From Warburgia ugandensis (lineage: Eukaryota; Streptophyta; Magnoliopsida; Canellales; Canellaceae), in NCBI GenBank assembly GCA_035236585.1, contig CP141128.1, positions 34,020,684 to 34,084,683 on the forward strand: a stretch of 64,000 bases of DNA, written 5' to 3'. The notes beneath the pieces were generated by a model. That model did no database searches, was not told where the DNA came from, and saw nothing but the letters and a program-made list of their open reading frames with translations. A program made the translations under genes and the position numbers. Below are positions 4,215-37,989 of the stretch, piece by piece; the stretch's first letter is position 1; every line of letters starts with the position of its first letter.

Positions 4215-5944
4215 AGAACAAAGTGAAATCACTTGGAGTTTTGCAATATTTGAAAACATAATGTCTAAACTTTTCATGCCATTCGTTGATCCCTAGCACA
4301 ATATCCATACATACTAAATGCTAAGAAGTGCTAAGGGACATTGACAAAACAAAACATGTCTATGGAAGTCAATAGGAACAAAGTCAAATCACTTCATCTT
4401 GGGAAGTTTCCAAACACAATGTCTAGATCTATCAAGCCATTGCATTATCCTTAACACAATGCCTAAACATGTTAAGCACTAAGAATTCCCATGTGACAAT
4501 GTTAAAACAATACATATCCTTGGAAGCCCATAAGCACAAAGTGAAATCATTTCTTAACTTAGGAAGTTCATAAACACAACTTCTAAACTATTCAAATAGT
4601 TAGATGATCCTTGTCACAATGTCTAAACATGCTAATTGTAAGGAAGTCCTATAGTACAATGTTAAAATATTACATGTCCTTGACAGTCCCTAAGCACATA
4701 GTCAAATCACTTTGAGTGTTGGGATTTTCTTAAACACAATGTCTAAAGTTTTCAAGCCATTAGATGATCATTGGGACAATGTCCAGGTGCCTTAAGTTCA
4801 AGGAATCCTAAACAGTGTCTAAAATTTCCAACTATTGGATAATCCTTAGCACAATGTATGAACACTGTAAGGAGTGGGAAGTGCCAAGTTACAATTCCAA
4901 AATAGCACATGTCCTTGGATATCCCTAGGTACAAAGTCAAATCATTGTAAGTCCATGGATGTTTCCAAAATCATGGATAAAATTTTCAAGCCATTGGATG
5001 ATCTTTGGTGGAATATATGGCACATTAAGAACTAGGAAGCCCCATGGTAAAATGTTAAAGCATTACATGTCCTTGAAAAATCTCTAGGCACATAGTCAGA
5101 TCACTCTAACTTTGGGATGTTTTCAAACACAATGTATAAACTTTTCAAGCCGTTCAATGATCGATGGAACAATTTATGAGCGCTATAAGTGCTACAAGGA
5201 CCCAAGGCATAATACCAATACATTACATGTCCTTGGATGTCCCTAGGCACTAGTCAAATTACTTTTATCCTATGATGTTCTTAAACACAATGTCAAAACT
5301 TTTTAAGCCATTGCATGATCCATGGTACAATGTCAAGGCAATTTAAGTGCTAGGTAGTCCCAAGGAACAATGCTAAAATAGTACGTGTCCTTAGATGTCC
5401 ATGGGAAGAAAATCTAATCACTTCGAGTACTGAATGTTCCCAAACACAATGACTAAACTTTTCAACCATTAGATGATCCTTGGCCCAATGTCTGTGCATG
5501 CTAAGCACTAGGAAGACCCAATGCAGAATGTGAAAACATTACATGTCGTGGGAAGTCCTTAGGCACAAAATAAAATCATTTTAAGATTTGGAAAATTTTC
5601 AAACATAATTTTTAAAATTTCTAGCGGTTAGATGATCCAGAATAATGAACAATCACATTATGGCTCTCAAGTCCCAAGGCACAATGTGAAAACATTACTT
5701 GTCCCTAGAAGTGCCTAAGCACAAAGTCGAGTAACTTCAAGTCTTGAGAAGTTCTTGATTAAAAATTTTAAAGCCATTGTATGATCCCTAGCACAATGTT
5801 AAACCACATTAAGGGCTTGGAAGTCCCATATCACAATGTCAGAACATTAAACATCAATGGAAGTCCTTAGGCACAAACTCAAATCCAATTATCCTACAAA
5901 GTTCCTAAAGACAATGTCTAAACTTTTCAAGCAGTTGTATGATC
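4215..5944. repeat. Satellite 1, left segment (~160-bp monomers)
   Basis: About eleven diverged tandem copies. The anchor 'tgatccttggcacaatgtc' recurs with variants near 4288, 4606, 4765, 4998, 5157, 5316, 5475, 5781 and 5938, that is every ~156-160 bp. Each monomer contains further 'cacaatgtc'-like cores at ~40-bp steps. The segment's last monomers match the last monomers of the higher-order block ending near 16348 ('aaatccaattatcc', then 'acttttcaag', then 'tatgatc'), so it was continuous with 14176 onward before the LTR element went in. Short open frames here run across repeat boundaries and are not genes. Confidence 0.9.
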
Positions 5945-6248
5945 TATAACAATCCCAAAATTTCACTATTCCATGATCAAGTTATGAGTTTTCAAGGGGT
6001 ATATATTTTTTATAAAAGTATAATTTAGAACTAAACCTGAAACCATTAGATAGTGCTCAGAAAATGGAACTCAATGAGCCAAACAATGCTGAAAACAGAG
6101 CTCGTATGAAGAATTTATGGGCATTTCAAGTCAAGGGCAATATGGTAATTAAAAGAAAAAAAAAAACAAAGCATACAACTTAACGAGTGGCGGCCAAATT
6201 GATATTGGCACCCTCCCTCATGTTGTAAACCTGACGAAATGTCGGGTC

Positions 6249-6270
6249 TGCTCTCTCTCTCTCTCTCTCC
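6249..6270 (+). repeat. (CT)n microsatellite
   Basis: A short CT run in the pyrimidine-rich leader-like part of the LTR. Pyrimidine-rich tracts downstream of the promoter are also seen in the other LTRs of this window. Confidence 0.9.
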
Positions 6271-6539
6271 TCTGACCAGTGCAAAACCTAAGGCTTTTGC
6301 CTTGCTCGGATCTTCCATTAGCACGATGAGCTTCCCCTTGCTTGAATCTCCCACCGGCGAGTTTCCTTGCACTTCCCACTACTTCTTTCTCCACAAATCT
6401 GGCCGACCACTGATCGTGCTTAGAAAACCCCTTCTCTCCCTTTCTTCCATTTGCAATTTTCATTCCAGTCAACCATCGAAAAATGACGCCTAGCTAACCA
6501 CCTCTGTCGCTCTCATATTTCTCTTCCCCACCTCCGGCC

Positions 6540-7370
6540 AACACTGCCTGATGTGGCATCTTGAGTTCAACTCATTGATGATACCCAACCATGGGGCCTA
6601 TTCCCAGATCTCCTTCCCTATGTCTCCGATCTCTTTTCCCTTGGTCAGAAACCCCTTTCCGGTAGGTTTCCCAGCATTGGATCTCTCCGACGTAGCCTGA
6701 TCCAGTTGACCACCAAATGTCCTCTCTCACTTTTTGTCACTCTAATTGCCTCAGTGCCTTCCTACTTGGTGCAGTGCTCTTACAGTTATTGATGAAGAAG
6801 AGGGTTACAGAGGAGAAACCAAATTGCTCTTTGGAGGTACCAACTATCCAAACCCTTGATTTCTTATTTCCTTGCAATTGCTTTCGTATTCTTATTCTAT
6901 TTCTAGTTTTGATTCGTTTTTGCTAGAATTGAGATATAGAAATCATCAGATCTATTGAATTCTAGGGTTTTATGTGTGGAAAAGTACTTGATCTTTTAAA
7001 ATCTAGGGATTTTGCTTTGCAAGAAGGGCATTTCCTTGCTGCATCTACGAGAAATTGATCAGCATATTCGCAAAGCATTGTTACAGATCTTTTCTTTGCC
7101 TGATTGTAATGTTTGAGTTGTTCATATCTTTCCAACAACCTAATTTCCAGCTTCTTTAGATTTTGTAGCTTGAGATCTCCCCATGCTCTTTACATTCCTG
7201 TTTGTTTCCTATTAGTTTTAGTTGTGATTTCTCTTTCTTCTATTGGAATTTCAGGGTCATTGTGTTATTGGCATATCTTCTTGTTTTTGCCTGGAAATAG
7301 GCTGTTCAGTGGAATTCTTTGATTTGCCCCTAGAACTTGAAGCCTTTGTTTTTGTTAGTAGACTAGAACC
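6540..7370 (+). other. Captured UTR/intron-like sequence upstream of the PPR fragment
   Basis: No conserved reading frame. It includes 'ctagggttttatgtgtgg' and long T-rich stretches of the kind seen in introns in plant 5' untranslated regions, and a possible acceptor near 7250 ('tttcag'). The same sequence, roughly 93% identical by eye, is at about 10500-11332 in the other LTR. It runs directly into the PPR fragment, so I infer that it came from the same host gene. If introns are really present, the capture involved genomic DNA or an unspliced transcript. Confidence in the intron reading is low. Confidence 0.4.
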
Positions 7371-8234
7371 ATGTCTTCCACTATAACTCGCCGAATGCCT
7401 ACATAGCATGGTATTTATAGCAGCAATTTTGGGTCCTCGTTCAATACATAGAACAATAGCAACACACCATCAATGCTACTAATAATGCTCTGTCAACTAG
7501 TAATAGTTCTTATCCCTTTCATAGTAGACCTTGATATGGTGTTATGGTCATCAATGATCGGTGGGTATGTTTAGAATGGAAGGAATGAAGAAGCTTTAAA
7601 CTTATATGGCAGAATGGAGAGTCAGGGTCTTTTACCTAATGAGGTAACAATGGCTAGTATTCTTAAAGCTTGTTCTAGCCTTGCAGCTCTAGAACAAGGG
7701 AGGCAAATTCATGCTCGTATGGTCAAATATGGACTTGGTTTAGAAGTCTGGGTCAGCAATGCTCCAACAACTATGTATGCAACATGTGAGAACATCACTG
7801 ACAGCAGCACCATCTATAGAAAAATGCCTAGTAGGGATATTGTTACCTAGAATTCAATGATATATGGTCTGTCTCACAATGGGCATGGTAGCAAAGATTT
7901 AGAACTTTTTGATGAGATGTAGTTAGAAGGCGCAAAGTCAGATTCTATCACATTTGTTAACATTCTTTCTGCTTATAGTCATATGGGCTTGGTCGATAGA
8001 GGTTTGTCATACTTCAAGTCAATGCTCAATGATCATGGAATAGTTTCGAAGATTGTTCACTATGCTTGTAAGGTTGATGTTCTAAGTAGAGATGAGAAAC
8101 TTGAGGAAGCTAAGGATTTCATTGAATCTACCCCTATGGATCATGCCGTATTTTGTAGCTATTTGTGCTCCACAAGGATTACTTCAAACACATTCTTAGT
8201 TGTGCGAGGATATCAAGAATCTGGAGAAGAGTAG
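7371..8234 (+). pseudogene. PPR protein gene fragment (PLS class), copy in 5' LTR
   Basis: Begins at a possible original start (ATG at 7371, reading MSSTITRR) and continues as a recognisable PLS-class pentatricopeptide protein. The clearest stretch is 7614-7850, with LPNEVTMASILKACSSLAAL, EQGRQIHARMVKYG and the end MPSRDIV. Another is 7983-8130, with MGLVDRG.SYFKSML, HYACKVDVLSR and LEEAKDFIES. These are the usual 35-residue PPR/L/S phrases; such proteins bind organellar RNA and act in editing, splicing or stability. Only part of a normal PPR protein is represented, the frame is interrupted in several places, and no C-terminal E/DYW domain is convincing. It sits wholly inside an LTR and is duplicated in the other LTR, so it is a passenger rather than a working gene. 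Confidence 0.85.
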
Positions 8235-9469
8235 CTGGCCCTCTTTGAAGTCATTATTCCTTTTGAGGTTGTGGTCCACGATATTTCCATGCTCTGACTC
8301 TCGCCACATTGTCATGACACGTGCAATCCTTTTGATGTATTGACGCTCACGGGGTCGATCATGAAGGAGAGGGTGATTAAAGCTAGTGGAATCCAACGAA
8401 CATGTCACGTGATGTAGGTTGACATTTAAGACCGCATGTCTAAATAATAAGATGCATGTTCTAACATGATCTTATTTCTGATTATATGCGTGATATTTGA
8501 TATGCTTTAAATTGAAATGATAAAATAATGTTAATTAAAAGAATTGCGTGTTATAATTGAGGCTTATGACATATACATCATGTATGAGAATTTGAAAATT
8601 ATGTTTATGGTGCATGGGTACCTTATCAATTTTGATGATGTATGAGTCTAGGTTTATAGGATACATCCTTGGTGGGTAGTCACCAAATAAGTGAGAATGT
8701 TATGCTTATTATGAAATATATGAATAGGTGAATGGGCTGCTATTATGATTATCTTACATCTGGGCATGGAGGCCTGAGAGTTTAGTTTTGGACAGGCATA
8801 TGCCTGGGGATGCTATGCTAGGAGAGTTATGAGGGTTTGTCCACCCGCTCTCCTAAATTTATGATATGATGGATACCTTGCCCTAGGTATGGCTAAAAGT
8901 CAAGTAGGGCAATTATGGGAAGGGCCTACTATGAAAGTCGTGTCTCCCCATTTGGACATTGACATTGTTTTTCTGCCATGGTATCAACAGCATATAGAGG
9001 CACACATCCAGGCTTGCTGTTATGGATTAGTGTTGTGATGCATAGTAGTCCTCATGTTTGGTGCACTATGGTGTTTATATTAGGGCATTATGAGATGTCT
9101 TATATTGTTTTTCTAGCAGTGGCTGGAGGATTGTGGACCCCGTATAGGGAGGGGCATGAGGATTATACTGATATAGCGCTAAAGAATGGATGAGTATGAA
9201 CCCCACATGATGAGGGGTATGATTTTGAAACCCAATATAGTCTGGAAATGCAAATTAGATGATATTGATTATATTCATAATTTTGTATGTCTTTTAACAA
9301 TTTTCATATATGTGTACGTATACTATATGTATATGATTGAGTGCATAGTTTTATATAAGTTTCATATGGGTGTATGAATGGGTAGAATTGTTATGCAGAG
9401 TATGGTTAACAAAATTGGATTAGTTTATATTGATAATAAATAATATTTAAAGATGTTTGATAAATCAAC

Positions 9470-9605
9470 GGATTACTTATAAGTATGAAACATGTAGATA
9501 TCGATAATTATGAAACATGTTAATAATCGATTTATCAATGGATTGTTAATGAATATGAAACATGTCGATATCTGGTTTATAAATTGATTATTGAAATGTC
9601 AAACA
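9470..9605 (+). repeat. Short repeat cluster around 'tatgaaacatgt'
   Basis: The 12-mer tatgaaacatgt occurs at about 9484, 9509 and 9554, mixed with 'gatatc' and 'aatcgattt' variants. The same cluster is in the other LTR near 13540-13620. It is part of the LTR; role unknown. Confidence 0.7.
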
Positions 9606-10135
9606 TATAGTAAATCCAATTCAATATAATTGCTATGAAAGTGAATATTTTAATTACTATGGAACAATTAATGTATCTTAAGATTTAGCATGCTTCTTAA
9701 ACTCCCCTACCAAACATAGCTTGCAGTGATATTGTAAGGGTTTTATGTTTACAATATCTCAGTTACAAATGGACAGGAGAAGATGTACACAAGAAGAGGA
9801 ATCTAGCAACCATACTTCTACGCTCAGGTATACATTTTTTTATAGCTTTTGTATTGTATAGTTTGTCATTTAAATTGTAATATTGGACATTTACTATAAT
9901 GGTTATAGGGACTGTGTAAGTGAACCACTGGATGGGTCCTATTTTTAAGAAATGCATGTCTATCTTCTACCAAAACTATATATAGGTATAGTGTTAGCAT
10001 GAAGGTGACATCCGAGTTCTTGGAAAAATGAATTTCAAAGTAAAATCTTCTGCAGTTTTGAATTTTAAAAATTTAGAGTGGCCACCTTTTGAAAATAAAT
10101 GCAAAAATTTTTCATGGAAAACCCGAGGTGTCACA

Positions 10136-10499
10136 GTTTGTATCAGAGTAGTTCATCTAGTCACTAGCAGCCCTTTATGTCTAATAAAAAGATTACAATT
10201 TAAATATAGGTTAGGATCTCGTGAGTTGATGTAGAATTACGATCGAATTAGTTGAGTATTAGAATGAGTAAGTATATTTAGAGTACAAAGGAATAGTAAA
10301 CGATGAGGAGATGTACTTAGTAAGACAACTAGGATAATGATTTGAGAAATTAGTATTCCACTATTGAGAATAGTGAACCAAAGAATAAAGTAGTAGAGAT
10401 AGTTAAGTGAGTGCGATAGAATCTCCTTTTTATCTATAAGGTGCCCAAATACCATAACTTATAGTAGTGCAAAATGCTCCTACTCAGGTTTAAATAGAA
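10136..10499 (+). mobile_element. Internal remnant with primer-binding-like site
   Basis: Starts right after the LTR end 'gtgtcaca'. Positions 10138-10149 (ttgtatcagagt) resemble the initiator-methionine tRNA primer site TGGTATCAGAGC, followed by 'tcatctagtcac' as in the chromoviruses at 33540 and 42850. The rest, AT-rich and featureless to me, has no gag, protease, RT or integrase similarity. The element is therefore incomplete. Confidence 0.75.
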
Positions 10500-13400
10500 A
10501 TGATGTGGCTGCTTGAGCACGGCTCACCGATGACACCTAACCCTGGTGCTTGTTCCGTGATCTCCTTCCCCGTGTCTCCGATCTCTTTTCCCATGGTCAA
10601 AAACCACATTCTGGGTAGGTTTCCCAACATCGGATCTCTTCGATCTCTCTAACGTAGCCTAATCCAGTCGACCATGCAAATGTCCTCTCTCACTTATGGT
10701 TACTCTGATTGCCTCAGCGCCTTCCTACCTGGTGTAGTGCTCTTACAGTTTTTTACGAAGAAGAGGGTAACAGAGGTGAAACCGAATTGCTCTTTGGAGG
10801 TATCTACTGTCCAAACCCTTAATTTCTTATTTCCTTGCAATTGTTTTCATATTCGTAGTCTATTTCCAGTTTTGATTAATTTTTGCTAGAATTGAGATTT
10901 AGAAATCATCGAATCTATTGAATTCTAGGGCTTTATGTGTGGAAAAGTACTTGATCTTTTAAAATCTAGGGATTTTTCTTGCAAGAAGGGCATTTCCCTT
11001 CTGGATCTACGAGAAATTAATCAGTATATTCACAAAGCATTGTTATAGATCTTTTCTTTGCCTGATTGCAATCTTTGAGTTGTTCATATCTTTCCAACAA
11101 CCTAATTTCCAACTTCTTTTGATTTCGTAGCTTGAGATCTCCCCATGCTCTTTACCTTCCTGTTTGTTTCCTATCAGTTTCAATTGTGATTTCTCTTTCT
11201 TTTATTGGAATTTTAGGGTCATTGTGTTATTGGCATATCTTCTTGTTTCTGCCTGGAAATAGGCTGTTCACTGGAATTCTTTGATCTGCCTCTGGAACTT
11301 GAAGCCTTTGTTTTTGTTAGTAGACCAGAACCATGTCTTTCACTATAACTCGCTGAATGCCTTCACTGCATGGTAGCTATAGCAGGAATTTTGGGTCCTT
11401 GTTCAATAGACAGAACAATATCAACACACCATCAATGCTACATGGTGGCTTCTTTCAAGAGGAGAAAATCCTCAGCTTTGGCATGGGAAGATAGTAATGG
11501 TAGTATCAGCAGTTGGACATGACTAATAATGCTCTGTCAACTAGTAATAGTTCTTATCCCTTTCATACAGGACCCTAATATGGTGTTATGGTCATCGATG
11601 ATCAGTGGGTATGTGTAGAATGGAGAGATTGAAGAAGCTTTAAACTTATATGGCAGAATGGAGAGTGAGGGTCTTTTACCTAATGAGGTAACAATGACTA
11701 GTATTCTCAGAGCTTGTTCTACCCTTGTAGCTCTGGAACAAGGGAGGCAAATCCATGCTCGTATGGCCAAATATGGACTTGGTTTAGATGTCTAGGTCAG
11801 TAGTGCTCCAACAACTATGTATGTAACATGTGGGAACCTGAATGACAGCAGCACCATCTTTAGAAGAATGCCTAGTAGGGATATTGTTTCCTAGAAATCA
11901 ATGATATCTGGTCTATCTCACAATGGGCATGGTAGCAAAGCTTTAGAACTTTTTGATGAGATGTAGTTAGAATGCACAAAGTTAGATTATGTCACATTTG
12001 TTAACATTCTATCTGCTTCTAGCCATATGGGCTTGGTCCATAGAGGTTGGTCATACTTCAAGTCAATGCTCGATGATCATGGAATAGTTTCTAAGATTGA
12101 TCACTATGCTTGTAAGGTTGTTGTTCTAAGTCAAGATGGGAAACTTGAGGAAGCTAAGGATTTCATTGAATCTGCCCCTGTGGATCATGGCATGTGTTTA
12201 TGCCTTATTTTATAGCTATTTGTGCCCTACAGGGATTACTTCAAATACATTCTTAGTTGTGCGAGGATATCAAGATTTATGAGAAGAGTAGTTGGCCCTC
12301 TTTGAAGTCATTATTCCTTTTGAGGTTGTGGTCCATGATATTTCCATGCTCTGACTCCCGCCACATTGTCATGACACTTGCAATCCTTTTGATGTATTGA
12401 AGCTCATGGGGTTGATCATGAAGGAGAGGGCGATTAAAGCTAGTGGAATCCAATGAACACATCACATGAGGTAGGTGGACATTTAAGACAGCATGTCTAA
12501 ATAATAAGATGCATGTTCTAACTTGATCTTATTTCTTATTATATGATTGATATTCGATATGCTTTAAATTGAAATGATAAAATAATGTTACTTAAAAGAA
12601 TTGCATGTTATAATTGAGGCTTATGACTTGTACATCATGTATGTGAATTTGAAATTTATGTTTATGGTACATGGGTACCTTGTCAGTATTGATGATGTAT
12701 GAGTCTAGGTTTATAGGTTACATCCTTGGTGGGTTATTACCAAATAAGTGAAGACGTTATGCTTGTTATGAAATATATGAACAGGCTAATTGCTAGTTAT
12801 TATCATTATCTTACATCTGGGCATGGAGTCCTGAGAGTTTAGTTTTGGACAGGCATATGCCTGGGGATGCTATGCTAGGAGAGTTATGAGGGCTTGGCCA
12901 CCCGCTCTCCAAAATTTATGATATGATGGATCCTTGCCCTAGGTATGGCTAAAAGTCAGGTAGGGCAATTATGGGAAGGCCCTACTATGAATGTCCTATC
13001 TCCCCATTTGGATAGTGACATTGTTTTTCCGTCGTGGTATCAACAGTATATGGAGGCACACATCCAGGCTCGCTGTTATGGATTAGTATTGCGATGCATA
13101 GTAGTCCTTATGTTTGATGGACTATGGTGCTTTTATTAGTGTATTAGGAGATGTCTTATATTGTTTTTCTAGCAGTGGCTGGAGGATTGTGGACCCTGTA
13201 TAGGGAGGGGCATGAGGATTATATTGATATACCAGTAAAGAATGGATGAGTATGAACCCCGCATGATGAGGGGTATGATTCTGAAACCCAGTATAGTTTA
13301 GAATTGTAAATTAGATGATATTGATTATATTCATAATTTTGTATGTCTTTTAACAATTTTCATAGATGTGTACATATACTATATGTATATGATTGAGGGC

Positions 13401-14175
13401 ATAGTTTCATATGGTTGTATGAATGGGTAGAACTGTTATGCAGAGTATGGTTAACATAATTGGATTAGTTTATATAGATAGCAAATAATACTGATCAAAG
13501 ATGTTTGATAAATCAACTGATTGCTTATAAGTATGAAACTTGTATATATCAATAATTATGAAACATGTTAATAATCATTTTATCAATGGATTGTTAATGA
13601 ATATGAAACATGTAGATATCTAGTTTATAGATTGATTATTGAAATGTGAAACCTACGGTAAATCCAATTCAATATAACTGCTGTAAAGGTAAATATTTTA
13701 ATTACTGTGGAATAATTAATGTATCTTAAGATTTATCATGCTTCTTAAACTCCCCTACCAAGCGTAGCTTGCTGGGATATTATAAATGTTTACAATATCT
13801 CAGATATAGATAGACAGGAGAAGATGTACATATGAAGTGGAATCTAGCATCCATAGTTATGCACTCAGGTATACATTTTATTACAGCTTTTTTATTGTGT
13901 AGTTAGTCATTTAAATTGTAATATTGTACATTTACTATAATGTTTCTAGGGTCTGTGTAAGTGAACCACTGGATGGGTCCTGTTTTTAAGAAATGCATGT
14001 CTATCTTCCACAAAAACTACATATAGGTATAGTGTGAGCATGAAGGTGACATCTAGGTTCTTGGAAAAATGAATTTCAAAGTGAAATCTTCTGCAGTTAT
14101 GAATTTTAAAAATTTGGAGTGGCAGCCTTTTGAAAATAAATGTGAAAATTTTCATGAAAAACTCAGGGTGTTACA
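10500..14175 (+). repeat. 3' LTR of the PPR-carrying element (partial)
   Basis: Aligns with about 6548-10135 of the 5' LTR from the 'tctccgatctcttttccc' region (near 10575) to the final 'gtgttaca' at 14175. It includes the captured gene fragment, the 'gcctggggatgctatgct' block near 12860, a hairpin near 13772-13802 and the 'gtgaaccactggatggg' box near 13962. It carries about 85 bp near 11440-11525 that the 5' copy does not have. The sequence matching the first ~600 bp of the 5' LTR is not represented. Followed by the TGATC target copy and satellite 1. Confidence 0.85.
11333..12215 (+). pseudogene. PPR protein gene fragment (PLS class), copy in 3' LTR
   Basis: Second copy of the fragment at 7371-8234, from the ATG at 11333 (MSFTITR). 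The PPR phrases are again clear: LPNEVTM and EQGRQIHARM.KYGLGL near 11650-11790, then MGLVHRGWSYFKSMLDDHG, HYACKVVVLSQDGKLEEA and KDFIESAPVDHG in 12027-12190. It is interrupted in several places. Where the copies differ, this one sometimes looks closer to a normal PPR sequence (for example DGKLEEAKDFIESAPVDHG). Presence in both LTRs means the fragment was already in the parental LTR when this copy was reverse-transcribed. Confidence 0.85.
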
Positions 14176-16348
14176 TGATCCTTGACATAATCTCTGAGCA
14201 CGTTAAGCACTAGAACATGCCATGGTGCAAAGTGGAAAGCATTACTCGATTCTTGAAAAAATCTTGGCACAAAGTTAAATTGCTTTGAGTCCTAAGATGT
14301 TCCCAAACAAAAATGTCCAAAATTTTCAAACCACTGGACTATCCTTGGCACAATGTCCAGAAAATTTAAGTGCTAGGAATTCCCAGGCCCCAATGTCAAA
14401 ATGATGCATGCCTTAGGAAGTCGTTAGGCACAAAGTGAAGGCGATGTGAGTGCTGGGAGGTTCCAAACATTGCATCTAAACCTTTCAAGCCATTTGATGG
14501 TCATTGGCACAATGCTTGAGAACTTTAAGTGGTGGGAACCACAAGGCACAATGCCAAAACACTACATGTCCTTGGATGTCCCTAAGCACAAATTCAAATT
14601 ACTTTTGTGTCTAAGGATGTTCTAAAACTCAATGTCTAAACTTTTCAAGGCATTGGATGATTCTTGGAGCAATGTCTGAGCACTATTGGGCTAGCAAATC
14701 TCAAAGTACAATGCCAAAACATAACAAGTACTTGGATGTCTCAAGGCACAAAGTCAAATTACTTTGAGACCACAATGTTCCATAATAACACAATCATTAA
14801 ATTTTCAAGCCAGTGAATGATCCTTGGCACAATCTTCAAGCAATTTAAGTACAAGGCAGCCCCAAGGCACAATGAATAAATAGTGCATGCCCTTAAATGT
14901 TCAAGGAACAATGTCAAATCAGTGCAAAGTCAAAGGACAAATATCACTAGGAAGTTCTGAGTTGGAATGTCAAACATTACATTTTCATGGATGTCCTTCG
15001 GCACAAAGTCGAATCAATTTGAGTCGTTGGAAGTTCATAAACACATTGTCTATACATTTCAAGCCGCTGGAAGATCCTTGGCATAATGTTTGGCTACCTA
15101 AATTGTTGGGAAGTCCTAAGACACAATGCCAAAACATTCATCCTGTTGAATGTGCCTAGGATGAAAATAAAAACCATACTTGTTCTTGGAAGTCTCTAGG
15201 CACAAAGTCAAATCACATTGAGTCCTAAGATGTTCCCCAATGGAGAAGTCTAAACTTTTCAAGCTGTTCGATGATCTTTGCCACTATCTCTAGGAAATTT
15301 AAATTCTCAAAAGCCCCAATACACAATGTTAAAACAATAGTTGTCCTTGGAAGTCCCTAGCCAAAAAGTGAAATAATTTCAAGTCATGGGAAGTTCTCAA
15401 ATGCAGCGTGTAAACTTTTCCAACTACTGAATGATCCTTGGCACAATGCCTAAGCATGCGAAGCACTTGAAAGTTCCATGGTACAAGGTAAAAAATTTAC
15501 ATGTCCTTGGATGCCCCAAGGTAAAAAGTCCAATTACTTCGATTCCTAGGTTGTTCCAAAAAAGAAATTCCTAAACGTTTCAAGCCACCAGATAATCCTT
15601 TTGACACAATGTCTGAGCACTTTAAGCTTTTGAAAGTCACATCACAATGTCAAACATAACATGTGTGCAAAAGTCCATGGACACAAAAGTCAAATCACTT
15701 CGAGTCATGGAAAGTACCCAATTCTCAATGTCTATACTTTTCAAGGGAGGGGATGATCCTTGCCACAATGTTCAAGTTGGTTAAATGCTGGGATGTCCTA
15801 TGACACAATGTCAAAATAATGCATTTCCCTTGATGTTCCCAAACACAACGTCTAAACCTTTTAAGCATTGGACAATCCTTAACACAATGTCATAACATGT
15901 TAAGAGTTGGGAAACTCCTGAGTCACAATGTCAAAACATTACATGTTATTGGATATCCCTAGGCATGAAGTCAAATTACTTAGAGTCCTAGCATGTTACC
16001 AAACATAATGTCGAAACCTTCCAAGTTGTTGGATGATCCTTGGTGCAATGTTCAATAATGTTAAGCATTTGGAAGTCCCAAGGCCTAGTATGAAAACATT
16101 ACAGATCATTGGAAGTCCCTTGGCACAAAGTTGAATCACTTCGAGTCTTGGGAAGTTGCCAAACAAAATGTCTAAAGTTTTCAAGCCATTAGATGATCCT
16201 TGGCACAATGTTTGGGCACAAAACAATCCGAAGTCCCATGGCATAATGCCAAAATAGTCCTGTTCAAGGATGTCCCTATGCCCAAAGACAAATCCAATTA
16301 TCTTGCAATGTTCTCAAACACAACATCTAAACTTGTCAAGAAACTATA
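14176..16348. repeat. Satellite 1 higher-order block A (~2,173 bp)
   Basis: Bounded by the marker 'tgatccttgacataatctct' at 14176 and its variant at 16349. Contains variant monomers in order: 'actttgagaccacaatgttc' (~14760), 'ggagaagtctaaac' (~15243), 'ggaggggatgatccttg' (~15745) and 'aggcctagtatgaaaac' (~16081). Confidence 0.8.
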
Positions 16349-22365: not shown

Positions 22366-22425
22366 TGTAGCAACCTTGGTTCTTAAAACACTTTTCATGT
22401 TTATATGTAAAAGGTGGAGCTCCAA

Positions 22426-22470
<45 letters not shown>

Positions 22471-23596
22471 AGACAGTGAAAAACATTTTCTTAGAAATTC
22501 ATTTCTAAAAAGCCTGATGACACTTTTACTCTCATACTATACATAAATATATAGTTTGTTTATAAAATAGAACTTCATTTATTGAAAATAGGACCCATCC
22601 ATTGGTTCACTTACACAACCCTGATAAATATTATATTAAATATCTAAAGTCCATAATCCAAATAATTAGCTACACAATATAAGATTTGAAATAAGAATGT
22701 ATACTCGATAATAGTATGGTTGCTGGTATCCTTGTAGAGTATCCATCTTCTCCTATCCATCTGTATCTGAGATATTGTAAACATTCAAACATTTACAATA
22801 TCTCAGCAAGCTATGCTTGGTCGGGGATTTAAGAAGCATATGAAACATAAAATATGATTATAATCCAATAATTCATTGATAATTCAAATATCCATATTCA
22901 TCATTTTTCATCTAAATGAAGTCATCTAATTTCATGAACCATACTCTCTATAGCAAGTCTACATGTAATTTCTCATGTGAAAACTTCTATGAAAGTACTC
23001 CCTCAAGAATTCATAAATATATACATAATTATACCATGCACATCAAAATTGTTAAAAATCATACAAAATTATTAATGTAGTCAAGAATAGTCTCATAATA
23101 TCTATTGCCAGATTGTATTGAGTCCAATATCCATACCTCTCACCTTATGGGGTCAATAATCATCCAACCTCTGCTGGTATAAATAACAATCGACATCCAT
23201 ACCCCTCACTATACAGGGTTCATCATCATTCATCTGCCACTGGTCAGAAAATAACATAATATCACATATCGGTAATGAGCTCATACTAGGCATATCATCA
23301 TGCTACCTCATAAGACATATCATAATATCAGCACATCAGCACCATAGTGTGTAAAATATGACTATTATGCTACATTATCATCCACACTAGCGTGCTTGGA
23401 TGACTACATATATACTCCACTAATACCGTGGTGAAAAATACACACTATCCATGTTTGTATGGGAAGACATGGTTATCACAGTGGTGCCCTTCCCATAATT
23501 ACCCCATTAAACGTTTAGCCTCTCTTTGTGCATGGCATCCACATATCATCAATTTGGGGTAAGCAAGTGGCCAACCCTCATACTCCCCTAGGAAAG
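22366..23596 (-). mobile_element. Old minus-strand LTR, 3' part (PPR-element family without PPR)
   Basis: Read on the minus strand this ends 'ggttgctaca' at 22366, directly against satellite 1. It matches the end of the LTR at 5945-10135: 'aggacccatccattggttcac' near 22590, the hairpin at 22768-22805, 'gcaagctatgcttgg' near 22805 and, near 23500-23580, the 'ccccattaaacgtttagcc' and 'ggccaaccctcatactcccct' blocks. It is interrupted at 23597 by a solo LTR and resumes at 26987. Fossil LTR. Confidence 0.8.
22429..22469 (+). repeat. A41 homopolymer
   Basis: 41 consecutive A bases inside the minus-strand LTR (poly-T in the LTR's own sense). The related LTR end near 10090 has no such run, so it is a local expansion or an assembly artefact rather than a poly-A tail; no target duplication brackets it. 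Confidence 0.9.
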
Positions 23597-25454
23597 TGTA
23601 ATGACCCTAGTTTTTAAATTCTATTTTAGAGGATCATAAATTAATTTTGATAAACATAAATGGGAGAATCTTTATATTTAGGTTGCACTGAATTGGCCTT
23701 TTGAAAGATATCAAATTGGACACCAATGCCTCTATAATTGGATAGTACTCAAAAAGATCATTCAAACGACACCAAATTTGCAGAAATTGAAGTTTGGATG
23801 GAAGAGATATGAGGAGTTAAAGATTAAGGATAATTTTGAAAAAAAAAAGGAGAAGGGCTTAAACATAGGGGCCATATTTGATACGAGCACCCCCCCACCC
23901 CATGCCACTTAAGGAAACCCGACATAATCATCAAGTCTGCCTTCCAAAGTTGACAGAAAAGTAAAAAAAAAAAAAGTGGAAGAAGAAAACCCACGAGAGT
24001 GGAGAAGAAGAGAAGAGGAAAGGAGAGGAGAGTGGGAGCTAGGTTCCCATGCTTGGAAAACCCACCACACCAAAGAAAAAGGGAAGATTAGGGTTTTAAG
24101 GCATAGGAGTTTACAAGTGTCGCTTGAGAAGACGACGACGTGGATCTTCTATCCGAGCTAACCAATCTCCTGTGCATGTGAGCACGAACCAAAGTCCTAA
24201 GCTCTTAGAACAATTCGTGCTCGGATGAATGCTAGATGGAAGAGGAGATTGTCACATGCCTAGTTTTGGAGGGTTTGACAATGGATCTGAGCCAATCCAG
24301 CTCATTCTAAAGGGAGAAAAACACAAAAAGATGTCTCGGAGGTAGGATCTATGATACCCACCTCTTTGATTGTGTTATTTTGCTAAAATCCATGCATTTT
24401 TAACATCGATCTATATTTATGGATGATCCAACCGTCCAATCCCTAATCCAAGCTTAGGGATAGGTAACTTAGGACCTAATGTAACATGGATCATACAAAA
24501 ATTTCAAATCTAGGCTGAAAACCAATTGGACAATCTCAGCCATCCAATTAGGTATGTCTTACACAATAACTTCATGATGTCTGATCAATGATCAGATACC
24601 ACATATGAGTTCTAGAGCATTGAAATTGCTAGGATATGGCACAAATTGGAAAATTTAGATTGAAAATGATCAAAAAACCTAAACCGTCTGATTGGAGAGT
24701 AGAGTAATAAGGACTTGGCCATTTCTAATTGGTGATCATATGCCACCATTGTGTATGCTAACCTTTATTAAGTCAAGAAACTCAGAAAATTTAAAACAAG
24801 GCTACTGAATAGTGAAAATAAGTTGTAATCGCTTAAGAAGAATGATAGATAGCCAATCTAGGGCCAATGGTATGGATTGGAAATCCAGTAACCATTGGTC
24901 ATTCAAATAGCTATCAATCAATAGCTAATAGAATGCCCTCAGTATAGTAATAAGCATTGTCACTTTGCCTTGTGCCGAATAGTGCCAGGAGCTAACTTAG
25001 AGAAAACTTCCATAGTAGGGAAGCTAAGAGAAATCCTAGATTGTATAGCTGAATGTGTGTTTATATTATTACAGAGGTGTGACTAATCAAGAGCACGTAT
25101 ACGAACTAAATAAATTATTGCGTTAGTGAACCTGAAGATCTCCATTTGAGGTAGGTGGAATTAAGGTTGCCATGTTTTTTAGTATAATTGTATTTTGAAT
25201 TGAAGTTAAATATGTATGATGTGTTTTGAATAAGAATTTAAATATTTATGTAAAGATGCATGTTATTTACTGTTTACCTTGTAAAGAAGGTCTACAAGAC
25301 TATTTTGTCATACTTGGGTATGTGATTACCTATAATTGTCTATGTTCTTTGCTAATTTATATCAAATGATATTAATAAAGTATGAGGACTTGTTTTGAGC
25401 ATTTGTCATGAGATTTTATTGTAAAAGACTCTAATTTATGTGATCCCAGATATA

Positions 25455-25965
25455 GTTAAAATCATATGACTTATGTAAGTCGGATTGGCCCATGTATAGT
25501 CTGTATTATATTGATACAGTTAAAATCAGGCAACCTGCGAGAGTTGGTCTGGGCCCGTTTATACATTTTGTTTTGTTGATATTGTTAAAATTAGGAGACT
25601 TATGAGAGTTGGTCTTGGCCCGTTTATATGTTTTGTTCTATTATATGATTAAAATTAGGCAACTCTTGAGAGTTGGTCCTGGTCCATATATAGACTATGT
25701 TATGTTGATATAATTAAAATCAGGCAACTCAAAATAGTTGGTCCTGGCCCGTGTGTACATTTTCCGTTATTGATACAGTTAAAATCAGGCAACTCATGAG
25801 AGTTGGTTTGGTCTTCTATAGACTGTGATTCACATATACAATTAAAATCAGGTGACTTGTGAGAGTTGGTTCTGGCCCATTACAAATACTGATTTATCAT
25901 TAAGATTAAAATCAGGCAACTTGTCAATATTGACTTGGCTTGTGTTGAGTTATATGACTGACAAC
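25455..25965 (+). repeat. 64-bp tandem repeat, 8 copies
   Basis: The phrase 'ttaaaatcaggcaact' begins copies at 25455, 25519, 25584, 25648, 25712, 25778, 25842 and 25904, spacing 62-66 bp. Each copy also has 'gagagttggtcctggcccg'. It lies inside the solo LTR; internal LTR arrays of this kind can alter promoter or enhancer strength, but that is inference. Confidence 0.9.
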
Positions 25966-25972
25966 AGGTAAT

Positions 25973-26115
25973 TGTGAAATGGCTCGTAAGAGCGAAGACA
26001 GGTGTTAGATGAATGTGAAATGGCTTCTAAGAGTGAAGACTAGTGTCAGGTAATGTGAAATGACTCGTAAGAGTGAAGACTAGTATAAGGAAATGTAAAA
26101 TGACTTGTAAGTTTG
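25973..26115 (+). repeat. ~40-bp tandem repeat, 3-4 copies
   Basis: Copies start at 25973, 26014, 26054 and 26094 with 'tgtgaaatgrctcgtaagag' followed by 'gaagac'. Directly follows the 64-bp array within the same LTR. Confidence 0.85.
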
Positions 26116-26346
26116 ATATGTGATTTCATACTTTGCATTTCAAGGAATGTGATTTAGGACTGATGCATCGATATTCTTCATTTGTAGCATGCTTTTATGA
26201 TCTTTATAAATGCTGAACTATTTCAAGTTAAATGATAATTGAATAGTAGTTGCATAATTCATCATGGACAAATTGATTTATATAGAATTATCATGATTTT
26301 GTTTATATAAAATTGTCATATTCCACCTACACAAGCGATTGCTTAC

Positions 26347-26376
26347 TGAGGCATTACTTTGGTTTGCAATGCCTCA
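26347..26376 (+). other. LTR hairpin, variant stem (TGAGGCATT/AATGCCTCA)
   Basis: Inverted repeat TGAGGCATT...AATGCCTCA, followed by 'gatacagagaa' exactly as in the other LTRs. Against the common stem TGAGATATTG/CAATATCTCA, two stem pairs are changed on both sides (A-T to G-C and T-A to C-G). Confidence 0.75.
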
Positions 26377-26986
26377 GATACAGAGAATAGTAGTTGGTTT
26401 AGCATGTTGACAATATCTCAGAACAAAGGATTCCCAAGCAATAGGAATGGTTTACTAACAGGAGTGTGCCAACAGAAGCTTTTGACTAGAACAGGTAACA
26501 AATGGGTTATGCTTGATGTTATTTTATCATAAATGAGAAAGAGACTGCAATGTATGTAATTATGGGAGTTATGATAATGTATATGACTGGGCTATGATGT
26601 GGAAGTTCTGGGTGTGTATTTTGTTAAAGTAATTTGTCTTTACTTTGTTTGGTGTATGAAAAGGAGACAAAGTCTCCAATGATGTTTTAAAAATTGTCAA
26701 TGAATGTTTATCAAGTATTTCACAGTGACATGTTCTAAATGTCATATGTCTAAAAAACAGAAGAAACTCTACCAAATTTTCAATAGAAATGAGCACTCAT
26801 TTCACTAAGAATCCTTGTTTTGAGAACAGGAAAATGACACTTGGGGTTTTTCAAGGTTAATTTAAAAGAAAAGATTATTTTTCTGTTGTTTGGTCTTTAA
26901 AACAATTTTTATTAGAGATAAAGCTCACTATGTCAATGTCTTTTGTATTTAAAAAGTATTTTGAAAACCCGATTCCTCATAGAAAG

Positions 26987-28344
26987 TATCCCCAAGCCTA
27001 TGGCTATCGAAAACAAAACTCTCATGCCTTCGTGCTTGGATGTAAAATAATAATACTAGCAGGCAATTTTCCTGTCCACATATAAATTCATAATAAATAA
27101 TGTCAACATCCTCACTTAATGGGTGAACACACCAAGGATGTAATTTATCAATCCAAATTAACAATTCAATAGATCATGAAATTGGTACCCATGTACCAAG
27201 AATATATAATTTCAAGAGATACAAATAATATAAATTTAGATCACTCCATTTAGCTAATGTTCACACAATTATAAGCATAAGATCAATACATCATTGTAAT
27301 GAACTCATTACACATCCTAAACATTTAACGAATGCTAATTTGCCATTTATTCTATATAATGAACAATTTAAATTCTATCAAGGTCATAGTATTAAGTAAG
27401 ATTGTATTTAGAACACATATCTTGCAACTTAGAACATGCATTCTTACAATTCCACCTCTCTCGTAATGAGTAGCCAATCCCTTTAACACTGTATTTCTTT
27501 TTGTCAGTGAAATCTTGTATATCTGTCAGCACATGTAATACATGGTTATCATCTCTCTTTTAGTAATACATTTGTTTTATTTTATTCTTGATCATCATAA
27601 ATTTAGATGATCTTATACTTGATCTTTTCTGATCTTAGTGATATTTCCTTATGGTTTGTCTGATTATTTAATTTTAACCGTTGCTCATCAAATTCTAGTC
27701 TCGATCAATAGTTAACTCTTACATTTGGTTAGATCTTACATACTATTTATTTGTAAATTTGATGGTTAGATCATCTTTTAATCAATTAGATTAAGGTAGA
27801 TCTAGCCATTAACTTGATCAAATGATCCCATCAACAATTCAATTTGTCATAATTATACTATATTATAGTATTTCAATTACTTTATTATAGATCTAAAATT
27901 TATGTATCGATCTGATGGCCAGATCTAACTCTGATCAGCCAGATCTATGATCCTAGTCTTAATTAGTATTTTAGATCACCAATTTTAGCATATTTATAGG
28001 ATCTAATCATCCAAATTGTCTTAATACACTACTACCTAGTTGATCATTTATGAGGATCTAATCCATCTAAGTGATTCTTATAATTTCTAGGTTTTGATCA
28101 ACCTAAATTGCTCTTTGATCCTAGATTTAATTATATTATTTGGTTTATGTCGTTAATACGAATCCAACGGGCTTTTGTTTACCACAAATTGGGCTTGTAT
28201 GGCCCTCTAAATTTTAAATTTTATGTTTTAGGTCTTTTTAAACCATTTTTTTTTTAACTTCTAGATCAAAATGCATCAAGATGGGGTCATCGAGATGCAC
28301 TAGAGTAGAACACATTCTCCAAGACATTCCAGTGCATCTCGGTC
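26987..28344 (-). mobile_element. Old minus-strand LTR, continuation
   Basis: Continues the LTR interrupted at 23597. 26987-27230 matches the reverse complement of about 8570-8830 (for example 'caccaaggatgtaa' near 27130 and 'ggtacccatgtacc' near 27184). From about 27480 it departs from the PPR-bearing LTR and instead carries GATC-rich sequence that is also found, diverged, at 58748-59340. The right limit is not clear; no TGTAACA-type terminus is visible before the solo LTR at 28350, so this boundary is a guess. Confidence 0.6.
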
Positions 28345-28589
28345 TTCAGTGTAATGACCCCGAATTTTTGTAAATTATTAAGGAAAATTAATAAAGTTTG
28401 AATTTTTAGAAATTCTAGGCTGGAATATTAGGTTATTGAAAATTCTCTTTTTAAAGAGATTATATTATGCTCAGTGCATTATTGCTGGTAGTGGAGATTG
28501 TAGTGGGAATGGCGAATGCATTAGTAATTAAAAATTCTAAAGTAATAAAATATCTTATCAAAAGAAATGATAAAAAATTAAAATTTGGC

Positions 28590-28597
28590 TATAAATA
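28590..28597 (+). promoter_or_regulatory. TATA box of LTR (TATAAATA)
   Basis: TATAAATA about 240 bp into the LTR, preceded by 'aaatttggc' and followed ~90 bp later by a C/T-rich leader ('ctccccaaactctcttttcc'). The same layout is kept in the minus-strand sibling at 52718-52725 and in the chromovirus LTRs (38751, 48112). Predicted RNA polymerase II promoter of the element. Confidence 0.65.
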
Positions 28598-30375
28598 TGC
28601 CCCAAATATTTCCAAAAATTTTCACAATCTTAACCACGAAATTTCCAAATCTTCCTGGAATTTTAGCCCCAAATTCCCCTTCATCCCTCCCCAAACTCTC
28701 TTTTCCTTATTTCTCTCTCCTCTTTCTAATTGGAACAAGAGACCTAAATTCAATTAGGCACTCCGTTCCAGTAAGAATCTCATCAATTTCACCATCCATA
28801 ACATCCTATACTATAGTATATACAAAAATCCCAAATCAATTTCAAGATCCAATGGTTCCAACAACAGAAAATCACAAAAAGGTGGACAATCGGGCTATAT
28901 TATCATCAACTAGTAATTCTCTCAAATTGGGCATCAATTATATTGTTTTTCTCTAATCAAGTAGGTGGAACTACTTCCCATACATATTTATTATGGTTTA
29001 GTGTAATTTTTATTTTTCTGTAATTTAATTTGAATGAAAAATGGTAAAAATAAAGTAAATACAACAGCCTTCAATTTATGGTAAAAATAAAGCAAATTAT
29101 CTAACCCTAATAAAAATAGTAAGTGAGATAAGGATGATCAAACAAGATGAGATATTGTATGATAAAAAACAATAAGGAAAAAGAAACATCAATGTAAATT
29201 AGATTGTTGTGTATGATATAGATAGTACTTGTATAGATGATATTAAACCCATGGATATATGATATTCAAGGAAGAAAGATTCAGATCATCCTACATAAGG
29301 ATGATTAAATACCATGTAGTATGTACCCTTGATTAGAAAAATGAAATTATACATATGATTTGATAGATATATGTTGATCAAGACTATGGCAGATTTTAAG
29401 GAGTAAGAATACCTTATTGAGGTAGGTAGATTATTAAGAATGCCTTTACATGAAGATACATGTCTAATACATGATCTTATGTTTTGAAGTATTGACATAT
29501 ATGATACCAATATATTAAGGTAAATACCTCAAATTGAAATATGATCCAACCAAATGATGAGAAAAATAAGTATTAAATGGTTAAGTTGAGAATTGAGAAC
29601 AACCCCAAGTGAATAGGAAAGTAGAAAATGTTCCAGTCCTAGATAAACAGACAGATAGTCTGATATGTATAAGTATTATTTTGCATACAAGCTTGGAGGC
29701 TTGTGGTTTTGTTTTAAACAGGCATAGGCTTGGGGATGCTATGCTAGGAGAGTTAAGAGGGTTTGGCCACCCACTCTCTGAAACTTGATGATATTGAGTA
29801 CCAAGCGTAAGAAAGGCTAAAAGTCGGGTGGGGCATTTATGGGAAGGCCACCATTGTGACAGCCATGGTCCTCCCATATGGACATGGATATTGTAATTTC
29901 CACTGAGAATGGTATAAGTGGATTATTGAACAGTTATCCGGGCACACTGTACGGATTAGACTGCAAGCATAGTAGTCCTTGATTATTTTGCATTATGATG
30001 CATATGAAATTGGCATAGTGAAATGCCTTAAGGGATGGCATGATGAAATGCCAGGTAATTGTATATTACCAATATTTTTCCCAAGAAGGAAAATTCCCTG
30101 TATAATAACTAGCTGAGATACAAATTTCTTATAATGAAAGGAGTTGATAAGCTTTATATAGAAATGATTCTTGATTATTTTTACATTTTTAACGGATTTG
30201 CCCTTATACAACATGTATGTATAAAGGTGAACACAAATGACAAGGAAATGAGATGTCCTTATAACTAATAGTTATTAATGAATGTGTTTATGATAGAACG
30301 AATTATGGGATACTTGAATATTGAGATTATACTGTCAATAACTTACATTCTTATCCCCTACTAAGCATAGCTTGC

Positions 30376-30413
30376 TGAGATATTGTAAATGTTTGAATGT
30401 TTACAATATCTCA
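30376..30413 (+). other. LTR hairpin, common stem (TGAGATATTG/CAATATCTCA)
   Basis: TGAGATATTGTAAA, a loop around TTCGAA-like sequence, then TTTACAATATCTCA: arms of about 14 bp, centred about 420 bp before the LTR end. The same element is at 3760-3788, 9725-9761, 13772-13802, 22768-22805 (minus), 33105-33133, 42415-42443, 49297-49333 (minus) and 58313-58341. Confidence 0.85.
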
Positions 30414-30812
30414 GATACAGAGAAGGAGACTTAGGAGCTCAAGACTTGAAGAACAATTGAAGAATAAGTAATCAGGATATATCCCTTGAAATATTGAATT
30501 AGAACATGTATTGAATTTTGAACTTTGTAATTTGGATTGTATATTTGGACAAGTATTGAAAGGATACAATGGGCTATGTACTGTGAACCACTAAATGGAT
30601 CTTGAAGTTTAATAAAAGAATATTCCTTCAATGGAATTTTATCTTATACAAAATTTTACTTATGTACGTATGAGGTGGTGACTTAGGTTTTACAAAACAA
30701 ATTCTAAAGAAAAGAACTTTTGTTGCTTTGGTTTGCGAAATTTTTTTACTCTAAGGGCCCTATCTTTACAAAATGTATTATAAAATGTGTTATAAAAACC
30801 CGGGTCGCCACT

Positions 30813-30968: not shown

Positions 30969-33539
30969 ATGAGATTATACCTTAAGTCCATGTTAGTTTA
31001 AATTGAGTTATTAAGGTATATTAGTTGGAAATCATGTTACAGTAATTTTAAGTACCTTGTCTCATTATCATTAAATGTTAAATTATGTAGTTTTATGCTT
31101 TGAATTTATAATTCATTTATGGTTAAATGATATTAGTAGATCTACTTGTTATGAGATAAAGAGCATAAAACATCAAAAATGTATTCTAATGAGAAAGTAG
31201 AGTTTCATGATACAAATAACAATCGAGTACTTTGGACTTAATTAGTAAGGGCTATAGTTGGTAGGACAATATAAGGATTATCAAATCCTTGGCCCAAACT
31301 AGGAGAAGAATAATAAACCCCATGAATGACATTATAAATAATCATAGCCTTAATTAAAATCCATTAGAAAGAGTATTTAGGGTAAACATGCTTATAGGAA
31401 CCTTATGAAAGGTTGAGCTATGGTCATTCTAGTGAATGATGAACATAGTGGTTAAGGGGGTTATCTAATAGAGCCTCGCTCTTCCCCTACCTTCCGTTGA
31501 CGTTTGTGAGGTCTAAACGCCTCCTTACATGAGGATTGAAGTAACCACTTTGTTTTCACCCATTCAGCTAGTAAGCCTTAGCCAATTGGAAATAAGAGGA
31601 GCAGTGTAGATTTAGGCTTGAATAAGCTACCTTCAACCAGCACATTAACTGGTTGAATAATAATAATAGAAGCATAAAAGGTTAGTAGATTACCTAACCC
31701 TAATAAAAACAGTAAGTAAGATAAGGATGATCAAACAAGATCCATTAGATCTTGGATGATCAAGAACAATAAGAATAAGAATACAATGTTGTACTTAGTA
31801 TGCATGTTTATTAGTTTGCTTGTTATAGTTCAATAGATTAGGTAATCCAAACCCTTGATCAAAGATGATTCAAGGAAGAAAACCAAGATCATCCTCCATA
31901 AGGATGATCTAATAACTGAACTTAGACAAAGAAGAAATAGATGATAGAAGATCTAGGACCTTAATCTTTATCAACATGTGTAGATTGTCAATCAATGGAT
32001 CTATGAAAGATCAAGATCAAGGAGATGGACATACAAAGACTTAGAGATAGAAAAATACTTAGATATGAATGATCTAAAGATCATTCTAAACATCAGATCT
32101 AGTGATCAATAGGATGGTTCATAATTTATATATTGACAATACGTATGGATGTACAGATCATATACATTAGTCTAGATCAAGGAAGATTTGGGGAAAAGAG
32201 ATCAATCCTTAAAGGTAGGAGGATTTGATGAATGCATTTACATGAGATATACATAATTGTACTCATAATCTTATGTTGACAAGAATAATGTTAATACTTG
32301 CATTAAATCTCTTGAAAACCTTATGATCCAACCAAACACATACAAGAAGGTTAAGGACTAGACTATAAGTGAATAGAGAACTAGAAAATATTTCAGCCCT
32401 AAGTAAACAGACATATGGTCTGATATATATAAAATCTATTTTACATACAAGCTTGGAGGCTTGTGAGTTTGTTTTAATAACCATAAGCCTATGGGAATGC
32501 TATTTCTAGAGGAGTTATGAGGGTTTGGCCACCCGCTCCGTGAAATTTGATGCTATGATGATACCTTGCCCAATGAGAGGTTAAAAGTCGAGTAGTGGCA
32601 ATTATGGGAAGGCCACCACTGTGAAAGTCTTGCCCCCAATACGGGCAGTGACATAATATTTTCCACCGTCGTATCAGTGGTGAACAGGGCAGTTATCCAA
32701 GCACGCTAGTACGGATCAGACTATAGCATAGCAACCTTTCTGATTATTTTGCACTATGATGCATATGAGAATAGGCATAGTGAAATGCCTTATGTTGCAG
32801 CATACTGAAATGCTAGGTAATTGTATATTACCAATATTTCCCAAGAAGGAAAATTCCCAATATAAGATTAGCTGAAATACTAAATTGTCAAAATGAAGAG
32901 AATTGATCAGCTTAGTTGGGAATGATATTTGACTATTTTCACAAATTTAACTAGTTTACCCATGAAGGGTATGTATGTATGTATGTATATAGATATACAT
33001 AACTTACAAAGTAAAGAGTATGCTTAAGGATAATGATATTATCAAGTATTGGAATTACCTTGTCAGTTATTATGTTCTTGAATCCCCTACCAAGCATTGC
33101 TTGCTGAGATATTGTAAATGTTGTAATATCTCAGATACAAGGAAGGAGAGTTAGGAGCTGAAGATGATAGAAGACTTGAAGAGAATAATCTTCAAGGTAT
33201 ACCCTTGAAGACATGTATTTTTCTTTGTTGAGAGTTTTATTGTATGGTGAGCTTGAGTTTTGGATTATGTAATTTGGATAAGTACTGTAATAGATTTGGC
33301 TATACTGTGAACCACTGGATGGATCTTGGAATTTAATAAAAGTATATTCCTTCAATGGAATTTTATTTTGTACACAAATTGTACTTATGTTATGTATGAA
33401 GTGGTGACTTGGGTTTTCAAAACAAGTTCTAAAGAGAAGAATTTCTGTTGCTTTGTTTTGCGAAAAAAATTTACACTCGTAAGGGCCATGCCTTTCAAAA
33501 TACTTTACAAATCATGTTACAAAAACCCGGGTCATCACA
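30969..33539 (+). repeat. Partial 5' LTR of chromovirus complex
   Basis: From 'tgagattatacc' onward it aligns with about 40286-42849 of the middle LTR, with roughly 3% difference over 185 bp by eye. It ends 'gtcatcaca' at 33539, one base before the primer site. Contains the GATCATCC hairpin (31887-31909), the 'gtcg.gt.gtggcaattatgg' block near 32588, the TGAG/CTCA hairpin (33105-33133) and AATAAAA near 33336. Only the 3' part of the LTR is present. Confidence 0.85.
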
Positions 33540-33541
33540 GT

Positions 33542-33553
33542 TAGTATCAGAGC
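33542..33553 (+). other. Primer-binding site A (tRNA-iMet)
   Basis: tagtatcagagc, two bases after the LTR end 'tcatcaca'. Matches the initiator-methionine tRNA primer site TGGTATCAGAGC closely; copy B at 42852 has the standard form. Confidence 0.85.
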
Positions 33554-33669
33554 GATTCATCCAGTCACAGTACAGTACAAATATGTCCAAAGGAGAGATT
33601 ATAATCCAAGTCTAGATTAAGATAGAAGTAGTTGTATAGAGGACTGATAGAATTTTGTTTTATGAGCAG

Positions 33670-35340: not shown

Positions 35341-35349
35341 ACAAAAATT

Positions 35350-36250: not shown

Positions 36251-36309
36251 AGTCAGACGAATGTGAAAATAGTTTTCAAGAGTTAAAGAAGAGGTTAACT
36301 ACAGCACCA

Positions 36310-36700: not shown

Positions 36701-36779
36701 TCACAAACATCACAATTAAATCAGCTTTTATAGAACGAGTCCTTAAAGCCCAAGAAGAAGATACAACAACTCAAGTATT

Positions 36780-37930: not shown

Positions 37931-37989
37931 ATGTACTTCAAAGGGTGCCAGAAGAGCTAAAGCCTGACCTAACCTTCGAAGAGAAGGCA

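Follow-up and report, generated by a model that had tools for sequence, protein, structure and literature searches.

In a 64,000-nucleotide stretch of the Warburgia ugandensis genome (assembly GCA_035236585.1, contig CP141128.1, positions 34,020,684 to 34,084,683; hereafter, the window), we found a decayed plant-type long terminal repeat (LTR) element of 8,231 bp (5945-14175), both LTRs of which carry the same fusion of two host-gene fragments, one from a pentatricopeptide repeat (PPR) gene and the other from NOP14, a ribosome-assembly gene unrelated to it. The element is a defective LTR retrotransposon relic inserted in a ~160-bp satellite, and, with host-gene sequence from PPR and NOP14 lying inside its borders, it belongs among the gene-capturing LTR retrotransposons. 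We consider it likely that the fused scrap in the LTR was acquired by an ancestral element through template switching of reverse transcriptase, and was then propagated with the LTR.

The element is flanked by identical 5-bp duplications (Table 1), and when these flanks were joined without the element, the resulting empty site aligned unbroken to three places of the satellite (81-84% over 145-150 bp). Self-comparison of the sequence showed direct repeats at 6549-10135 and 10501-14175 (88.7% over 942 columns and 90.1% over 2,674 columns), and the identity of the LTR pair was 90.9% over 3,566 gap-free columns. These results bear out the preliminary description, which had proposed an LTR element with the same outer limits. 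The extent of the 5' LTR was set because a primer-binding-site-like sequence, presumably of the initiator Met tRNA type, follows directly after 10135, and because the junction of the LTR with this site (10118-10217) resembles the LTR/leader junction of another family in the window (33522-33623; 72% over 103 columns). Right after 10135, GTTTGTATCAGAG is identical in 12 of 13 bases to the site at 42850, behind the LTR that ends at 42849. The LTR core is common to at least four other LTRs in the window. The segment 5945-6548 has no counterpart in the 3' LTR, the first ~600 bp of which are missing, and the place of the polypurine tract was lost along with them. No retroelement Pfam domain (gag-pol) was detected in six frames of 10136-14175.

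The presence of PPR sequence in both LTRs, already noted in the preliminary description, was confirmed by matches to PF13041, with E values of 1.1e-22 and 3e-23 when the stops were read through. In six-frame Pfam scans in which the stops were entered as X, one frame per LTR matched this family (2.5e-19 in the 5' LTR and 7.9e-20 in the 3' LTR). The limits first given for this sequence (7371-8234 and 11333-12215) proved too wide, and homology extends over approximately the intervals listed in Table 1. The piece in the 3' LTR aligns to a solved PPR chain over 11580-12188. Because its best matches among solved structures were a synthetic PPR-DYW protein and PLS9-PPR, the donor was probably a PPR gene of the PLS class; the piece presumably resembles At2g33680. 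The 5' LTR is without 82 bp that are present in the 3' LTR just upstream of the PPR piece (7477 versus 11440-11521), and without 13 bp at the junction with NOP14 (8142 versus 12187-12199), both possibly small deletions. When the PPR piece was compared with viral contigs, nine pattern matches were obtained, none of which was confirmed.

The insert had first been described as PPR sequence, without the second gene. NOP14 adjoins PPR directly and in the same sense in both LTRs, with scores above the 34.9-bit cut-off of PF04147 in both copies. The match comprises 65 residues (profile positions 521-585, ~195 bp) in a frame that differs from that of PPR. Its identity rests on Pfam because the single match to a solved structure, Nucleolar protein 14 (7mq8), was weak (E = 0.47). 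The fusion therefore consists of ~620-635 bp of PPR followed by ~195 bp of NOP14, both sense to the element, and the junction is tight: in the 3' LTR, the PPR reading ends with ESAPVDHGMCL and NOP14 starts with MPYFIAICA within a few bases. According to a review, transduced gene sequences are usually in the sense orientation (PMC7264820). Further host genes were sought in 6213-7520, and no Pfam match was found up to E = 1 in six frames of the 5' LTR; the counterpart in the 3' LTR gave none up to E = 10 in six frames of 10136-14175. As a background, four other LTR regions in the window were scanned in a total of 21 frames (six each of 38186-42849, the minus-strand region 22366-28349, and 28350-30812, and the three sense frames of the solo LTR, 55574-57860), with no Pfam match up to E = 1. 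A DUF7295 match, at the same antisense place in both LTRs (E = 0.036 in the 5' LTR and 0.033 in the 3' LTR), and matches to Cas6_I-A (E = 0.12) and KN17_SH3 (E = 0.21) in the frames of 10136-14175 were below the cut-offs and were regarded as chance. No structured RNA in Rfam reached the gathering score across the window.

The divergence between the LTRs indicates a single history for all their parts. The Kimura two-parameter distance was 0.098 for the whole LTR, 0.094 for PPR, 0.076 for NOP14, 0.097 for the remaining 3' part, and 0.111 upstream of PPR, i.e., similar across the parts, as expected of one LTR pair. Because the fused scrap is present in both LTRs of one insertion, it was already present in the parental LTR, so that the capture preceded this insertion and was probably inherited with the LTR, as had been argued for the PPR piece at the outset. 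The reading frames contain four stops in the 5' LTR and five in the 3' LTR; four are common to both (5' LTR positions 7572, 7848, 7920, and 8197) and one is private to the 3' LTR (11793), and all five can be read as single changes in a CHG context, C-to-T or G-to-A. If the copies had decayed independently at the observed CHG rate, at least four of the five stops would be shared with P ~8e-4, a value that presumes ancestral Q or W codons, as would fit PPR repeats. The fragment was therefore probably already broken in the parental LTR, and the shared stops support an old capture. Between the PPR copies, dN was 0.090 and dS was 0.103 (12 and 40 changes), values that show no constraint on PPR. Taken with the stops, this led us to reject a coding function of the fragments, and the scrap is most likely passenger DNA without any present function.

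Differences of the C/T type between the LTRs were found at 46 of 89 CG sites, 55 of 160 CHG sites, and 89 of 1,079 CHH sites, and such an excess at CG and CHG sites is characteristic of methylated DNA. With a rate of 1.3e-8 per site per year, as applied in a previous study (PMC5664825), the insertion would be ~3.8 million years old. This estimate is probably too high because the C/T-type differences are concentrated at CG and CHG sites.

The fragments occupy LTR positions ~1577-2393. Three other LTRs have TATA-like boxes of the plant type close to their start (LTR positions 241, 410, and 566), upstream of this interval, which suggests, weakly, that transcription starts before the fusion and that the fusion forms part of the leader (R/U5). 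LTR positions 78-268 match (71%) the stretch upstream of the TATA box of a solo LTR on the minus strand (55564-57858), and 5945-6171 matches a 269-bp satellite at 59431-64000. Upstream of the fragments, a possible leader intron is seen as a 418-bp stretch whose AG/GT...AG/GG ends are retained in both LTRs.

The R/U5 region of the genomic RNA is copied first in reverse transcription and ends up in both LTRs. We infer that the scrap was acquired in this region by an ancestral element. While making minus-strand strong-stop DNA, which extends from the primer site across U5 and R, reverse transcriptase would have changed template to a packaged NOP14 mRNA, next to a PPR mRNA, and finally back to the element RNA. 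A switch to host mRNAs would be expected to leave sense, tightly joined fragments in both LTRs, which matches what is observed. The copied stretch would have become both LTRs, giving two doses per daughter. The fused LTR would then have been propagated. After inserting into the satellite, the present copy would have been stripped of its coding region and of the first part of its 3' LTR, and would have decayed as methylated DNA. A broader claim, that of an LTR lineage whose transcribed R/U5 leader was rebuilt from two host mRNAs by template switching in strong-stop synthesis, is advanced here only tentatively. If true, each daughter receives two sense PPR-NOP14 exon fusions, and host exons spread as LTR sequence, also via solo LTRs, hidden from annotation that masks LTRs.

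Several observations weigh against this interpretation. An RNA origin is not proven, since most PPR genes lack introns and the piece of NOP14 may be a single exon. The intron-like stretch, if it was part of the donor gene, would argue for an origin at the DNA level. The TATA-like boxes cited above were picked by choice as the most promoter-like of several matches per LTR (three in 28350-30812, six in the solo LTR, and nine in 38186-42849). Within the first 3 kb of the element itself, the TATA matches are confined to positions 56 and 67. The preliminary description had suggested that, if transcription starts in the 5' part of the LTR, the fragment would lie in the leader of the element; the boxes of the three other LTRs lend this some weak support, but the element has no TATA match in 6200-6548. 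Moreover, the 5' LTR starts with TA instead of TG (its relatives in the satellite start with TGTAACA or TATAACA), and the start of the 3' LTR is gone, so the LTR length is known from the 5' copy alone. Finally, dN/dS between the NOP14 copies is below 1 (dN = 0.057, dS = 0.157), although the 14 changes are too few to judge constraint.

A possible alternative, to which we give less credence, is capture at the DNA level, in which a Helitron, a Pack-MULE, or end-joining filler with the PPR and NOP14 pieces entered the LTR of a master copy and later came to be in both LTRs. The fusion of several genes is typical of Helitrons and Pack-MULEs, intron-like DNA occurs upstream of the fragments, and the end state after such DNA had entered a master copy's 5' LTR would be the same as after template switching. 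In maize, 1,194 gene-fragment captures by Helitrons were reported, and under the conditions of that study, none of 425 LTR elements from at least 189 captures contained two or more nuclear genes (PMC2774510). However, no Helitron-type 3' end (CTRRT plus hairpin) was found on either strand of the 5' LTR with the scan as set, where decay could hide the ends. Similarly, no long terminal inverted repeats of the Pack-MULE kind bracket the fragments, only weak pairs of 14-27 nt. Two such weak inverted repeats span the piece (7498-7524/9633-9659, 27 nt, 70%; 7516-7530/8923-8937, 15 nt, 93%), but both have their right arms within sequence that also occurs in other LTRs and thus fail to delimit an insert, and there are 11 such short inverted pairs in 4.3 kb.

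It is extremely improbable that the PPR sequence was doubled by a segmental or tandem duplication independent of LTRs, an origin that the preliminary description had set against its own account. The copies are only ~365 bp apart and the left 600 bp are unrepeated, as such a duplication might leave them, but the target-site duplication at the outer ends, the satellite restored at the empty site, the primer-site sequence after the first copy, the LTR-type ends, and the core common to other LTRs in the window contradict it, and we rejected it. We also regard as unlikely the explanation that the fragment is kept because its small RNAs act in trans on PPR and NOP14 genes. Unique small RNAs have been reported for 85 of 672 captured genes in rice and 812 of 1,343 in sorghum (PMC3726574), and the sense orientation and the leader position would place the scrap in the element RNA. 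Against this stand the ~9% divergence between the copies, their heavy decay, the near equality of dN and dS in PPR, and the four and five stops, in a copy that is defective and lies in satellite DNA.

Plant LTR elements are well known to capture genes, usually in their internal region. This presumably holds for the pieces in Bs1 of maize, whereas those of the Warburgia element are inside both LTRs. Bs1 resembles the present element in combining fragments of several host genes, three in its case, within a single plant LTR element (PMC13317346). GmaRetroS15 of soybean, a terminal-repeat retrotransposon in miniature (TRIM), likewise carries pieces of three host genes, but has them in its internal region; the gene-bearing TRIMs in the survey that describes it had 5-bp duplications and contained exons only (PMC4717578). 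Host-derived sequence inside the LTRs, and hence in both, is described for the TRIMs Cassandra, Helenus, and Ajax (PMC4717578, PMC10886601). There, it is 5S rRNA or tRNA in short elements, whereas here, pieces of two protein-coding genes are in a 4.2-kb LTR. Abnormal template switching is reported to have brought foreign sequence into BARE-2/Wis-2 and Veju, in BARE-2 into the LTR (PMC13317346, PMC1950507); however, the donor was another retroelement for BARE-2 and an unknown sequence for Veju, rather than host genes. Retroduplicated NLR genes of pepper are host genes in LTR elements, a single element sometimes holding two or three (PMC5664825), and in rice and sorghum, PPR was among the frequent captured domains, though under-represented (PMC3726574). 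In contrast to our analysis, those captures were counted over the whole element, and the annotation of intact elements in pepper, with a maximum LTR length of 2,000, would miss the element described here (PMC5664825). In our literature search, an LTR holding two protein-gene fragments did not turn up, and we regard a two-gene chimera inside the LTR as a variant of such capture that we did not find in print.

Searches for captured genes normally look at the DNA between the LTRs. When the captured sequence is in the LTR itself, it doubles at each insertion, can persist as solo LTRs after the other parts vanish, and is likely to be masked as a repeat. It also records the mechanism, because the position relative to the promoter and the primer site, the orientation, and the junctions constrain the time of entry in reverse transcription.

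Table 1. Coordinates of the element, its gene fragments, and the neighboring tandem array in the window.
Feature	Positions	Strand	Remarks
Left target-site duplication	5940-5944		TGATC; in ~160-bp satellite; empty-site alignment
5' LTR	5945-10135	+	4,191 bp; first bases TATAACA, last bases TGTCACA
U3-like segment	5945-6212	+	Sequence matches to solo LTR and 269-bp satellite
Putative intron-like stretch	6837-7254	+	418 bp; T-rich (43%); GT...AG ends
PPR gene fragment, 5' LTR	7521-8142	+	Stops 7572, 7848, 7920; outer limits by eye
NOP14 gene fragment, 5' LTR	8143-8337	+	PF04147, 46.4 bits, E 2.4e-12; stop 8197
Primer-binding-site-like sequence	10136-10150	+	GTTTGTATCAGAGTA; directly 3' of 5' LTR
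Internal-region remnant	10136-10500	+	~365 bp
3' LTR	10501-14175	+	3,675 bp; 5'-truncated; last bases TGTTACA
PPR gene fragment, 3' LTR	11565-12199	+	Stops 11616, 11793, 11892, 11964; outer limits by eye
NOP14 gene fragment, 3' LTR	12200-12394	+	PF04147, 45.8 bits, E 3.7e-12; stop 12254
Right target-site duplication	14176-14180		TGATC; matches 5940-5944
Tandem array, LTR part	30969-33539
Tandem array, internal	33540-38185
Tandem array, LTR	38186-42849		4.66 kb
Tandem array, internal	42850-47493
Tandem array, LTR part	from 47494

Other LTRs in the window were also compared with that of the element. A minus-strand LTR region (22366-28349) had been described as a member of the same family that lacks the captured piece. 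The absence was confirmed, with no DNA match to the PPR/NOP14 piece and no Pfam match in six frames, but membership in the same family was not demonstrable. Because the parts shared with the element are only 60-76% identical, this LTR appears to be a relative, not clearly of the same family. It is interrupted, within the core common to several LTRs in the window, by ~3.4 kb of unrelated DNA (23592-26975), which contains a 65-bp tandem repeat (25449-25922) and has no evident target-site duplication. The solo LTR at 55564-57858 (minus strand) is flanked on each side by GGCAG and nested in another LTR, and its position 410 carries a clear TATA box; 28350-30812 is a probable solo LTR with TTCAG flanks and a TATA box at position 241. 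The 269-bp satellite is homologous to the first ~270 bases (U3) of the element, at 72-82% in the parts aligned by blastn, and in three aligned monomers the homology extends across nearly the whole monomer. The satellite was apparently made from promoter-side sequence of the LTR, or the reverse. Another element forms a tandem array at 30969-48895, in which an 8.6-kb unit repeats at 92.9%; its second copy contains protease, reverse transcriptase, RNase H, and integrase zinc-binding domains.

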